DNA from: Desulfofarcimen acetoxidans DSM 771
GTDB taxonomy: Bacteria > Bacillota > Desulfotomaculia > Desulfotomaculales > Desulfofarciminaceae
Assembly: GCF_000024205.1 (NCBI RefSeq)
Contig: NC_013216.1
Location: forward strand, 2,852,001 to 2,916,000
Reading direction: 5' to 3'
DNA: 64,000 nucleotides
The notes beneath the pieces were generated by a model. The model worked only from the letters and a program-made list of their open reading frames with translations. It was not told the DNA's origin and searched no databases. A program made the translations under genes and the position numbers. Below are positions 24,379-44,725 of the stretch, one piece after another; position 1 is the first letter of the stretch, and every line of letters starts with the position of its first letter.

Positions 24379-24425
24379 TAAAAAAACAATAAGACTCCTA
24401 CCTGAACATTTGTCCTGGTAGGAGC
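24379..24425 (-). terminator. Riboswitch-controlled terminator
   Basis: On the minus strand GGCTCCTACC ... GGTAGGAGTC forms a long stem followed by TTTTTTT. Its 5' arm overlaps the 3' part of the fluoride aptamer, the usual expression platform. Confidence 0.85.
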
Positions 24426-24462
24426 CATCAGCTTAACAGCATTAGGCGAGCTCCATCGCCAT
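24417..24462 (-). promoter_or_regulatory. Fluoride riboswitch (crcB motif)
   Basis: Minus-strand sequence starts GGCGATGGAGCTCGCC and ends GCTGATGGCTCCTACC, matching the conserved core of the crcB-motif fluoride aptamer (GGNGATGG-NNCNCC and GCTGATGGC-CCTAC). A terminator follows directly (24379-24425), so F- binding is expected to prevent termination. Downstream are the MFS relic, usp and two crcB genes, a known riboswitch regulon. Confidence 0.93.
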
Positions 24463-24590
24463 ACATTTTTTTTATTATAGCATAAAACAAGTTATATTCA
24501 GCAATTAAATTTTAGGGTTTTAACAAAAAGTTTATTTTAGAGCAAAAAAACGCAATTATAACCCCACCAATACTTACCTGGATTACCAAA

Positions 24591-40627: not shown

Positions 40628-40656
40628 TTGAATTATTTAATTAATGATCTTATAAT
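40628..40656 (+). promoter_or_regulatory. SigmaA-type promoter of the metabolic operon
   Basis: TTGAAT, 17-base spacer, TATAAT. It would start transcription at about 40663, giving a ~195-nt leader before the ATG at 40857. Confidence 0.72.
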
Positions 40657-40662
40657 AATCAT

Positions 40663-40777
40663 TGTAGAATGGTAGGATGGTAAATGGGTAGCTTTATACA
40701 GGTATACGGGCTTTTACGATTGGTTTGGTCTTACCTGTTAATTCACCATAAACACCTCTATCTGGAGGTGTTTTTTT
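40663..40777 (+). promoter_or_regulatory. Structured 5' leader with attenuator (possible riboswitch, class unknown)
   Basis: The leader contains nested helices: ATGGTAAAT (40677-40685) with ATTCACCAT (40741-40749, one mismatch), and inside it ACAGGTA (40698-40704) with TACCTGT (40732-40738). Directly after the outer helix comes a terminator hairpin AAACACCTC / GAGGTGTTT with seven Ts (40750-40777), still 80 bp before the coding start. This is the layout of an attenuator or riboswitch. I do not recognise the aptamer; it has no T-box, SAM, THF, TPP or cobalamin core that I can see. Confidence 0.6.
40750..40777 (+). terminator. Leader terminator (attenuator)
   Basis: Perfect 9-bp stem AAACACCTC / GAGGTGTTT, loop TATCTG, then T-run. 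It lies between the promoter at 40628 and the first gene at 40857. Confidence 0.85.
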
Positions 40778-40856
40778 GTTTTACCGCTTACCTGACCACA
40801 ATAATATATATCAGCAAAAACTGAAAACATTAATTTTGTGGAAAGGGGATAAGATC

Positions 40857-42059
40857 ATGACAACTAGCTTACCTGAAAAGAAAACTATTGAGATAGGCAT
40901 CATCGGAGGCCCGTTTGACCGCATCACCACTGTTTTGGAAGAGTTTGAACCCGGACAGAAAGATTTTATAGTGCACCCGGAGAGTTTCGGAGTAACACCC
41001 CGTACCGTCAGCCAGATCAGCGAGCGCGAAGTAGAGGTTACTGTCCCCGCCCGCATGCACTCAACCGTACTGGACATGAACAGGTTTAATACCGGTCGGG
41101 CAGGCGGCGGCGGCATCGGCTGGGCTGTCGGTGTATATTTTCAGGCCAGAGTACGGGCCACTGCCAACCCGGATATAGTAGTCAAAGGGCAGCGCCCTTT
41201 GATTGTCAGCCATTTTGCCCATGTTTTTAAAGAAATATTAAAATTTCCCGGAGGCTTTGAAATTGAGCTCTATGACCACGGGCGCCGCCATGTAGGAATG
41301 GGTTCTTCCACAGGCACCATGACTGCTGCCTGTGTAGGAATCAATGAAGTTTTAGGGCGTCCCTTCACCAACCGCGAACTAAGACGCATACTGGGCTTCA
41401 ACGCCTGCGAAGAATCCGGCCTTCATTACCTGATCAGAGGCTTTGAAACAGGCATCGGTGCAATGGCCGGTATTAACGGGGGCATGGTGCTCAGCACAGA
41501 CGATATGGAACTGGTTTACAGAATCCCCGTACCTGAAACCAAAGCACTTATTTTTATTCCTGATGTACCTTCCCTGGAAGACGAGTATTCAGGCAAAGAA
41601 ACTGCTGCGGAATCGGAAGTTGAGCTTTTGATGAGACGGGCGCGTTACCTGGACACTTTACAGTGCGGCACCAAATCTCAGATTGTCCTGCTAGACCTGC
41701 TGCCCTCCATGGTCAGGGGGGATTTAAGAGGTATAGGCAACTCCCTGTTCGATCTGGCTTTTCTCGGTTCCAAGAGGGCTGAGTGTGAGCAGCACGGCGT
41801 GTTCGGGGCTCCTATTTACCATTTTCTCGGTACCTTGCGGGGCATCGGGGCGGAAGTTGTTGGCATGAGCTCTGTGGGACCGACTGTCTACGCTATGACC
41901 AAGGATCAGGATGTTATGGACAGAATGCTAAAATACTTAAAAGATCATGACGTACCGGAAAGCCGCATTATTGAAACCTTTATTGATAACACAGGGGCTC
42001 GAGTCAAAGAAAACGGTGTGGAAAGGAACTACCAGCATGAAGGATGGCTTACTTGTTAA
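40857..42059 (+). CDS. GHMP kinase-superfamily protein, beta-RFAP-synthase-like
   Basis: A 400-residue protein. The layout follows beta-ribofuranosylaminobenzene-5'-phosphate synthase: VTVPARMHSTVLDMNRFN (N-terminal RxH-DMN block), GGGGIGWAVG, and the GHMP motif VGMGSSTGTMTAACVGINEVLG; later GIGAMAGINGGMVLSTDD and the C-terminal GMSSVGPTVYAM. In methanogens and methylotrophs the enzyme couples PRPP with an aromatic acid to make a C-riboside. The substrate here is unknown. ATG at 40857 follows GGAAAGGGG; the frame is open 27 codons further upstream, but that part overlaps the leader terminator. First gene of a four-gene operon and overlaps the TrpF-like gene by 23 bp. Confidence 0.8.
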   Translation: MTTSLPEKKTIEIGIIGGPFDRITTVLEEFEPGQKDFIVHPESFGVTPRTVSQISEREVEVTVPARMHSTVLDMNRFNTGRAGGGGIGWAVGVYFQARVRATANPDIVVKGQRPLIVSHFAHVFKEILKFPGGFEIELYDHGRRHVGMGSSTGTMTAACVGINEVLGRPFTNRELRRILGFNACEESGLHYLIRGFETGIGAMAGINGGMVLSTDDMELVYRIPVPETKALIFIPDVPSLEDEYSGKETAAESEVELLMRRARYLDTLQCGTKSQIVLLDLLPSMVRGDLRGIGNSLFDLAFLGSKRAECEQHGVFGAPIYHFLGTLRGIGAEVVGMSSVGPTVYAMTKDQDVMDRMLKYLKDHDVPESRIIETFIDNTGARVKENGVERNYQHEGWLTC

Positions 42060-42873
42060 ACTCTGCGGCATGACAAATATAGAAGATATCCAATTGGCTG
42101 CTCGGTACGGTGCTGATTATGCCGGTGTTGTAACTGAAGTGGATTTCTCTCCCAGATCATTGACTATTGAACAGGCGGAGACAGTTTTTCAATTGTCTCC
42201 GCTGCCAACAGTCGCACTGGTTTACAACATAGCCTGGGATAGACTTGTTTACCTGGTTCAAAAACTGCAGCCTCACGCACTGCAGTTTCTGGGACCGGAA
42301 AACCCGCAGCTCCTGAGCAGATGCCGGGATAAATTTCATCAAACGGAACTCTGGCAATCAATCCACTTGCCGGCGGCAGAAGTCAACACCTCCAATACAA
42401 ATATTAGCAAAACTGCAAATATTGAAGCAGTACAAACACCGGAGCAACTTAACGCAGACCGGTTAACAAGCAATAATATTTCTAATAACGCAGGTAATTC
42501 ATGCTATAACGGTGAATTATTATCCCCAGAGGAAGCTTACATACTTAAGCAAGTAAAGCAAAACATGCTGGAATGTTATCAGGCCGGAGCGAATGTTTTT
42601 CTGCTTGATGCGGCAACTAAAATTAACGGAAAAACCCGTTTCGGAGGTACAGGGAAAACGGTCAACTGGAAACTGGCCAGAAAGTTAATTGATGCATCAC
42701 CTCTGCCGGTTTTTCTGGCCGGAGGCATAAACCCGGCCAACATTGCTGAGGCCATAAACAAAGTACACCCGTCAGGTATAGATTTATGCAGCGGTGTAGA
42801 AGCACTGCCCGGTAAAAAAGACCCGGGGAAAATTAAAGCCTTGATGGAAGGCGTAAAGAAAGCAGTGATTTAA
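42037..42873 (+). CDS. Phosphoribosylanthranilate-isomerase-like protein (TrpF family)
   Basis: A 278-residue TIM-barrel protein. KLCGMTNIEDIQLAARYGADYAGVV at the N-terminus has the catalytic Cys position, VFLLDAATKINGKTRFGGTGKTVNW contains the catalytic Asp and phosphate-binding region, and VFLAGGINPANIAEAI and GIDLCSGVEALPGKKD are also TrpF-like. A low-complexity Asn/Ser/Thr-rich insert of about 55 residues splits the barrel (VNTSNTNISKT ... NNISNNAGNS). No other trp genes are nearby, so it probably performs an Amadori-type isomerisation of another phosphoribosyl or sugar-phosphate substrate. ATG at 42037 after GGAAAGGA. Confidence 0.85.
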   Translation: MKDGLLVKLCGMTNIEDIQLAARYGADYAGVVTEVDFSPRSLTIEQAETVFQLSPLPTVALVYNIAWDRLVYLVQKLQPHALQFLGPENPQLLSRCRDKFHQTELWQSIHLPAAEVNTSNTNISKTANIEAVQTPEQLNADRLTSNNISNNAGNSCYNGELLSPEEAYILKQVKQNMLECYQAGANVFLLDAATKINGKTRFGGTGKTVNWKLARKLIDASPLPVFLAGGINPANIAEAINKVHPSGIDLCSGVEALPGKKDPGKIKALMEGVKKAVI

Positions 42874-43908
42874 ATGATGAAAGCAGCCGTGGTATATGGA
42901 AAAGATGATATCCGCATTGAGATGACTCCAAAACCGAGCGCCGGAGAAGGCGATTTGGTAGTCAAGGTACGTTCCTGCGGCATCTGCGCCACTGATGTTA
43001 AAATTTTGCTGGGCAACGGGCTGCCCAAAGACCTGCCCACCATATTAGGTCACGAAGTAGCCGGTGAGATTGCCGAAATAGGTCAGGGTGTGGATGGTTT
43101 TACAGCAGGGCAAAGAGTCGCTGTCTACCCTATAGCAGTATGCGGCGAATGTGAATTTTGCCGGCGCGACAACCATAATCTCTGCCTGAAGGAGTTCGGC
43201 TTATCCCACGGCATTGACGGGGGTTTTGCCGAGTATGTGAGAATACCTTACCAGATTGTCAAAGCAGGTGGTGTGGTAATTATTCCTGATCATCTCTCCT
43301 TTGAAGAAGCAGCTATGGCTGAGCCTCTCTCCTGCTGCCTGGCCGCAGCTCGCAGCGGGCCGGTTGGTCCAGGCTGCACCGTAGCCATTATTGGAGCCGG
43401 GCCGATGGGACTGCTTCATCTCAAAGTAGCCAAACAGGCCGGTGCTAAAGTTATTGTCGCTGATTTACTGGAACAGAGACTTAACCAGGCAAAAGAAATG
43501 GGAGCTGATTTTACAATTAACACCAGTCATGAGGATTTCGTACAGTCAGCCAGGCAGCTTACCGGCGGACTTGGCGCGGATATGGTTATAGCCTCGCTGG
43601 GAATCCCTCAAATCATGCAGGATTATTTGCCGGCAGTTAAAAACGGCGGGACTTTCAATATTTTCGGCGGACCACCGGCGGGACAAAGTATGACTGTGGA
43701 CCCCAGGTGGCTGCATTACGGCGAAATAAAAATTACCGGCACCTTTGCTTCAACACCGCAGGATTTTCAGCGGGCAGTAGAGCTGATTGCTTCAGGTGAA
43801 ATTGCAGTCAAAGATATGATCTCGCACCGTTTCAGCCTGGATAATTTATTAGAGGCTGTGGAAAAGGTAAAAAACCGTGAAATGATTCGCGGAGTTTTGA
43901 GTATATAA
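42874..43908 (+). CDS. Zinc-dependent alcohol/polyol dehydrogenase (MDR family)
   Basis: A 344-residue medium-chain dehydrogenase. Catalytic zinc: GICATDVKILLG and GHEVAGEI; structural zinc: CGECEFCRRDNHNLC; NAD-binding GAGPMGLLHLKVAKQAGAKVIVADL. Closest by pattern to threonine, sorbitol or galactitol-phosphate dehydrogenases. It begins directly after the stop codon of the TrpF-like gene, so coupled. In this operon it may oxidise the hydroxyl of a sugar-phosphate-like intermediate before aldol cleavage. Confidence 0.9.
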   Translation: MMKAAVVYGKDDIRIEMTPKPSAGEGDLVVKVRSCGICATDVKILLGNGLPKDLPTILGHEVAGEIAEIGQGVDGFTAGQRVAVYPIAVCGECEFCRRDNHNLCLKEFGLSHGIDGGFAEYVRIPYQIVKAGGVVIIPDHLSFEEAAMAEPLSCCLAAARSGPVGPGCTVAIIGAGPMGLLHLKVAKQAGAKVIVADLLEQRLNQAKEMGADFTINTSHEDFVQSARQLTGGLGADMVIASLGIPQIMQDYLPAVKNGGTFNIFGGPPAGQSMTVDPRWLHYGEIKITGTFASTPQDFQRAVELIASGEIAVKDMISHRFSLDNLLEAVEKVKNREMIRGVLSI

Positions 43909-43921
43909 GGGGGATAAATAA

Positions 43922-44725
43922 ATGAATGGTTTTCAGGCGAGAATGAAACGAATTTTCCGCAAGGGCAACGGCAAAGCGCTGGTGTTGGCCATAGACCATG
44001 GCATGGCGCTTGGCCCTATGACGGGCATAATGGATGTCAAGAGTACGGTAAAAAAACTGGATGCACCTGATCTGGTGGATGCCTGGCTCCTGACTAAAGG
44101 TATTTATGTACATGCTTTTGAGCCGGTAAATAACCCCGCCACCTTTTTAAGAATCAGCGGCGGTGCCACAATTGTCGGACCGGAGCTGACCAGAGAGGGC
44201 TTAACCTCCGATGTAGAAGAAGCCCTCCGCCTGGGATCTGACGCCACAGCCGCTTCTGCTTTTATCGGTTCTCCTTCGGAACACGAAACTCTCATTCAGA
44301 TGGCCTTGGCAGCAACAGAATGCCATCGCTGGAATGTCCCGCTGCTGGGTGTGGTGGGATTAGGCAAAATCAATGAAGAAAAGAAAAAAGACGCTAAATT
44401 CATTGGCCTGGGTGCCAGGGTAGCCGCCGAACATGGGGCTGACCTTGTAAAAACCTACTACACGGAAGAAAACTTCGACCGGGTAGTGACCGGTTGTCCT
44501 GTGCCCATATTGATAGCCGGCGGACCAAAATGCGATACAGACCGAGATACTTTAGCCATGATTCATGGCGCGATGCAAAACGGTGCTGCCGGTATAGTAA
44601 TGGGCAGGAACGTCTGGCAGAGTCCCCACCCGGAAGCACTGCTAGCCGCGGCACATGGCATCATCCATAATAATTTAAACGTACAGGAAGCGGTAGATTT
44701 GCTGGAAAGCAAGGCGGCTCAATAA
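43922..44725 (+). CDS. Class I aldolase, FbaB/LsrF-like (DhnA family)
   Basis: A 267-residue TIM-barrel aldolase: ALVLAIDHGMALGPMTGI near the N-terminus, the Schiff-base Lys in GADLVKTYYTEENF, and the phosphate-binding LIAGGPKCDTDRDT and GAAGIVMGRNVWQSPHPEALLAAA. The same family contains fructose-bisphosphate aldolase class I, ADH synthase and the LsrF thiolase. The substrate is not predictable, but the site favours a phosphorylated ketose or a dihydroxyacetone-phosphate product. ATG at 43922 with AAGGGGG upstream. Last gene of the operon; terminator at 44855. Confidence 0.9.
   Translation: MNGFQARMKRIFRKGNGKALVLAIDHGMALGPMTGIMDVKSTVKKLDAPDLVDAWLLTKGIYVHAFEPVNNPATFLRISGGATIVGPELTREGLTSDVEEALRLGSDATAASAFIGSPSEHETLIQMALAATECHRWNVPLLGVVGLGKINEEKKKDAKFIGLGARVAAEHGADLVKTYYTEENFDRVVTGCPVPILIAGGPKCDTDRDTLAMIHGAMQNGAAGIVMGRNVWQSPHPEALLAAAHGIIHNNLNVQEAVDLLESKAAQ

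Follow-up and report, generated by a model that had tools for sequence, protein, structure and literature searches.

Organization of the locus

The leader considered here precedes a four-gene operon in the window, that is, the whole 64-kb stretch of DNA that was analyzed. Its features and those of the operon are as follows.

40628-40656, + strand: sigma-A type promoter, TTGAAT-17-TATAAT, with the start of transcription predicted at about 40663-40665
40664-40691, + strand: tandem 8-nt array G-UAG-AAUGG-UAG-GAUGG-UAA-AUGGG-UAG at the transcript 5' end (about +1), a predicted HutP-like binding site
40677-40685 and 40741-40749, + strand: outer nested helix, ATGGTAAAT with ATTCACCAT; the 5' strand overlaps the array and the 3' strand abuts the terminator
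40698-40704 and 40732-40738, + strand: inner nested helix, ACAGGTA with TACCTGT
40750-40773, + strand: intrinsic terminator AAACACCTCTATCTGGAGGTGTTT, with seven Ts at 40771-40777; a terminator is kept here in orthologous leaders
40796-40841, + strand: hairpin CCACAAT ... ATTTTGTGG, adjoining the Shine-Dalgarno sequence (SD) of the GHMP gene
40857-42059, + strand: gene 1, a GHMP kinase-fold protein distantly related to beta-RFA-P synthase
42037-42873, + strand: gene 2, a phosphoribosylanthranilate isomerase-like protein
42874-43908, + strand: gene 3, a zinc alcohol dehydrogenase
43922-44725, + strand: gene 4, an aldolase of the DhnA/DeoC family, akin to LsrF and to the ADTH synthase of archaeal-type aromatic biosynthesis

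Elsewhere in the window, at 24412-24469 on the - strand, lies a fluoride riboswitch (RF01734, 46.5 bits), a member of an ordinary known class.

An earlier note on this sequence had described a sigmaA promoter, two nested helices and a terminator with seven Ts ahead of the start codon. All of these elements are present, the helices being weak and the terminator strong, and the start codon of gene 1 at 40857 lies 79 nt past the terminator. The note had also seen no hallmark of a known riboswitch, and the Rfam covariance search of the leader agrees with it: there was no match at the gathering threshold, and a permissive threshold returned only matches far below it, none of them credible. The whole leader folds mildly better than shuffled sequences (z -1.70, with 9 of 200 shuffles as good), an advantage that comes mostly from the terminator. 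In the MFE structure the outer pairing differs slightly, with 40669-40678 pairing with the same CACCAT.

The feature that the earlier note overlooked is the tandem NAG array; no other part of the leader is conserved as strongly. In the window it consists of two perfect units followed by UAA as the third triplet and then UAG, with a single cluster visible, and it misses the strict pattern described below by one base. The pattern GNAGNAYGGNAG has only one match in the 64-kb window, which is the array itself, with 0.54 expected.

Conservation of the leader

Orthologs of gene 1 were taken from relatives and their leaders compared. Most of these leaders carry the tandem 8-nt repeat NAG-N-A-Y-G-G at the transcript 5' end. 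In an alignment of eight of them, the invariant columns are confined to the array and the terminator, while the center of the leader shows neither conservation nor covariation. The consensus structure is the terminator alone, and the nested helices are not conserved. Invariant positions in the array and terminator together with an unconserved center speak for a linear RNA site rather than an aptamer. The earlier note had read the locus as a riboswitch or a protein-dependent attenuator; the conserved array and terminator support the second of these, and the comparison of homologous leaders disfavors the first. A metabolite riboswitch of a new class, built from the nested helices, would account for the riboswitch-like order of promoter, helices and terminator. 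However, the conserved array is also found in surroundings of unrelated structure, start codons among them, and no Rfam class matches. This explanation was rejected on the basis of the unconserved leader center, and we regard it as very improbable.

Two further elements recur around the array. The TATAAT box lies 8-9 nt 5' of the array in the window and in leaders L003, L006, L007, L009, L010 and L021. A CCACAAA/TTTGTGG hairpin beside the SD of the GHMP gene is conserved between the window and leaders L003, L006, L007 and L010; in these four leaders its loop contains a second NAG-N5 array, which has been lost in the window. Orthologs of gene 1 in the Desulfobacterales and Gammaproteobacteria are accompanied by neither an array nor HutP.

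Distribution of the site in the genome and the order

The array is not restricted to this operon. Elsewhere in the same genome it is found before a branched-chain-type ABC transporter operon, where there are two arrays, before the genes for DAHP synthase and prephenate dehydrogenase, and, at site 4447501 on the - strand (L037), before a mycofactocin precursor-like peptide ending in IDGICGVY and a mycofactocin-system OYE. In each case a terminator lies downstream. The last of these sites suggests that mycofactocin belongs to an aromatic regulon. When one mismatch was allowed, the genome gave seven matches, five of which are in leaders; the matches L187 and L188, which have no promoter or terminator setting, look like chance and were discarded.

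A strict pattern of three NAG triplets with 5-nt spacers, AGNAYGGNAGNAYGGNAG, was scanned in 113 genomes of the order. It occurs 103 times in 65 of these genomes, compared with 13 occurrences of the reversed pattern, and a class-wide scan added no genomes outside the order. Among 95 distinct sites, 44 precede an intrinsic terminator, 24 lie over the SD or start codon, as in GGAGGATGGTAGTATGG, and 27 are unclassified, a group that includes chance matches. One of the sites covering the SD and start, GGAGGATGGTAGTATGGGAG (L184), precedes an ortholog of gene 1 of the window. The first gene downstream of 87 sites encodes DAHP synthase at 40, an SSS symporter at 17, DctP at six, PaaK at five, a lactate permease-like protein at four and an ABC binding protein at three. 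Chorismate mutase, prephenate dehydrogenase, mycofactocin OYE and GHMP follow one site each. The uptake genes among these targets are of an arylacetate type. Several of the DAHP synthase leaders (L063, L065, L067, L068 and similar ones) also contain a very short ORF-like stretch, ATGTTTACATAA or variants of it, after the array and immediately before the terminator, which is possibly a leader peptide.

At the 68 terminator and SD sites the NAGs of a cluster number exactly three, AG at the flanking periods being at background, and at 57 of these sites the first NAG follows a G. A second cluster is common at the sister sites, many being 36-66 nt upstream, and lies near the SD in some orthologs. 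Within 120 nt of the terminator and SD sites there are 50 additional GNAGNAYGG units in the sense orientation and none in the antisense orientation, with fewer than two expected by shuffling. This strand bias indicates a signal in RNA and not in DNA. It is also the first of three observations against the array being a DNA operator just past +1 with a terminator that belongs to something else. The array does begin at about +1 in several leaders, 8-9 nt after TATAAT, but other sites are far from promoters, over the SD or start codon or inside operons behind hutP, and 8-bp direct repeats are neither a palindrome nor a 10-11 bp helical repeat. A DNA operator is thus highly unlikely.

A HutP-family protein as the candidate regulator

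The genome encodes a single HutP homolog (PF09021, 168.5 bits) at C1:2274556-2274936, directly upstream of a DAHP synthase gene. Across the 113 genomes, the array and HutP occur together in 62, while 17 have HutP only, three have the array only and 31 have neither (p = 2e-12, with genomes counted without phylogenetic correction). The 17 genomes that possess HutP but no strict site may be explained by the strictness of the pattern. The association extends to gene order. In 37 genomes hutP is followed within 12 kb by a site on its own strand, within 2 kb in 20 of them, and in none is the site upstream. Ten genomes (G011, G030, G033, G060, G063, G065, G066, G076, G095 and G096) contain a second, more distant HutP paralog scoring 62-114 bits.

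The predicted fold of the homolog points to HutP. An AF2 model (pLDDT 78.5) matched HutP structures in Foldseek with an E of 4e-9 and a TM of about 0.7, and all Foldseek matches below an E of 0.001 were HutP. A sequence-only search of the PDB with the homolog and its 11-sequence profile did not return HutP. The HutP family of this order is very conserved, and in a profile alignment its invariant Gly90 and Gly94 stand opposite His73 and His77 of Bacillus subtilis HutP, which we take to be the ligands of Mg2+ and L-histidine. Glycine at both of these positions makes a different ligand likely. From the gene content, we infer that this ligand is Phe, Tyr or an arylacetate.

Genus g21, represented by G020, a complete genome, and G073, does not fit the pattern of co-occurrence. 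Its sites, which lie at genes for DAHP synthase, SSS and ABC proteins, look genuine, and neither a HutP in the genomes nor a HutP-like ORF around the sites was detected. Either HutP has diverged in this genus or another factor reads the site.

TRAP (MtrB) is nearly universal in the order. In this genome its gene is present in a single copy at C1:826694-826897 (L044), between the gene for the DNA polymerase III alpha subunit and accDA and away from the trp genes. The presence of TRAP here and in 105 of the 113 genomes, its reading of (G/U)AG triplets and the HutP-less sites of genus g21 would all be consistent with an array read by TRAP or by another NAG/GGA-binding protein. Nevertheless, TRAP shows no association with the array over the 113 genomes (p = 0.46), and the TRAP-positive, HutP-less families f17, f7 and most of f14 are without the array. 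The TRAP site itself consists of 11 repeats with 2-3 nt spacers that bind an 11-mer ring (PMC7430163), which three NAGs with 5-nt spacers do not resemble. Based on spacing, repeat number and co-occurrence, TRAP was rejected, and recognition by TRAP or by another NAG/GGA-binding protein is judged improbable.

Proposed mechanism and direction of control

The leader is probably a protein-dependent attenuator in which the array is the predicted site of the HutP-family protein, the ligand is aromatic and the outcome is repression. From the patterns described above, we infer the binding of HutP to the array, the nature of the ligand and the direction of control, whether by termination or by SD occlusion. 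Rather than histidine, the HutP-family protein would probably sense one of the aromatic amino acids or a closely related product (Phe, Tyr or arylacetate). Once charged with ligand, it would bind the array as single-stranded RNA and bar it from pairing with the downstream leader, so that the terminator could form and transcription would be attenuated. At sister sites where the array overlaps the SD and start codon, the bound protein would instead be expected to block translation.

The direction of control was addressed by predicted folding. When the array was forced to be single-stranded in 41 terminator leaders, the mean predicted pairing of the terminator rose from 0.67 to 0.77, while a control mask gave 0.61 (p = 5e-5). 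This masking result and the 24 sites over the SD or start codon favor repression. In the nascent RNA of the 41 leaders, the 5' arm of the terminator mostly pairs at array positions 18-26. In the window, the array is paired with the 5' side of the terminator in nascent RNA extending to 40762-40768, and the terminator has folded by 40772. Pairing between the array and the terminator arm was also considered as a general antiterminator and rejected, as cognate pairs had only a marginal advantage over swapped pairs (p = 0.02) and over shuffled pairs (p = 0.08). The corresponding duplex in the window was no better than shuffled, so an antiterminator is not well supported there. Because the simple duplex energies are unconvincing, and least convincing in the window, the direction given here is a best guess.

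The opposite direction is unlikely. A HutP-family protein could bind the array and antiterminate, as in the hut operon of B. subtilis, turning the operon on with ligand. In favor of this, the known HutP is an antiterminator (PMC7430163), and some of the targets, such as PaaK and the symporters, function in catabolism or uptake. However, at the 24 sites overlapping the SD or start, binding should repress, and the largest group of targets encodes DAHP synthase, the first biosynthetic enzyme. Masking of the array likewise favors the terminator. Repression by the HutP-family protein is the preferred reading of the leader.

A broader proposal, toward which we lean somewhat less firmly, is that of a regulon spanning the order. 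A HutP-family protein without the histidine/Mg2+ site would have an aromatic amino acid or an arylacetate as its ligand and would repress through an RNA site of three NAGs with 5-nt spacers, either by attenuation or by covering the SD and start. Such a protein would be a HutP-fold counterpart of TRAP.

Implications

HutP is known as the antiterminator of the histidine operon. If the proposal is true, the HutP proteins found most widely in this order differ from it in the RNA site they bind and the ligand they sense, and they probably act as repressors that direct carbon into aromatic biosynthesis and the use of arylacetates. The expression of the mycofactocin precursor and the uncharacterized GHMP-PRAI-ADH-aldolase operon would then fall within the aromatic regulon, and TRAP-like control by an unrelated protein would represent convergence. 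Searches of the open-access literature found neither HutP in Desulfotomaculum nor an aromatic HutP regulon described, an absence that carries little weight given that most subscription journals lay outside the search. The analysis provides a testable RNA site, a protein and about 100 predicted targets.

Comparison with known systems

The NAG triplets of the B. subtilis HutP site are separated by 4-nt spacers, whereas the spacers here are 5 nt with a conserved GG. The clusters also differ in placement, being mostly 36-66 nt apart here and 20 nt apart in B. subtilis. In addition, His73 and His77 are replaced by invariant glycine in the homolog, the downstream genes are aromatic and not histidine or hut genes, and the likely outcome is repression and not antitermination. 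Despite these differences, the candidate protein shares its family and fold with B. subtilis HutP (PDB 1wpv and 1wmq, PF09021). HutP binds two clusters of three NAGs (PMC7430163), and the sites described here likewise have exactly three NAGs per cluster, often two clusters, and a leader terminator.

The resemblance to TRAP (MtrB), which controls attenuation of trp and translation of trpE and trpG in B. subtilis, is one of logic. Like TRAP, the proposed system has NAG repeats in the leader, and it would share with TRAP a choice between terminator and antiterminator, occlusion of the start region and an output in aromatic amino acids. In contrast, the present site has three repeats with 5-nt spacers, and its distribution does not follow that of the TRAP gene. 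Overall, the system most likely works like TRAP attenuation but belongs to the HutP family, with a spacing, a ligand and targets of its own.
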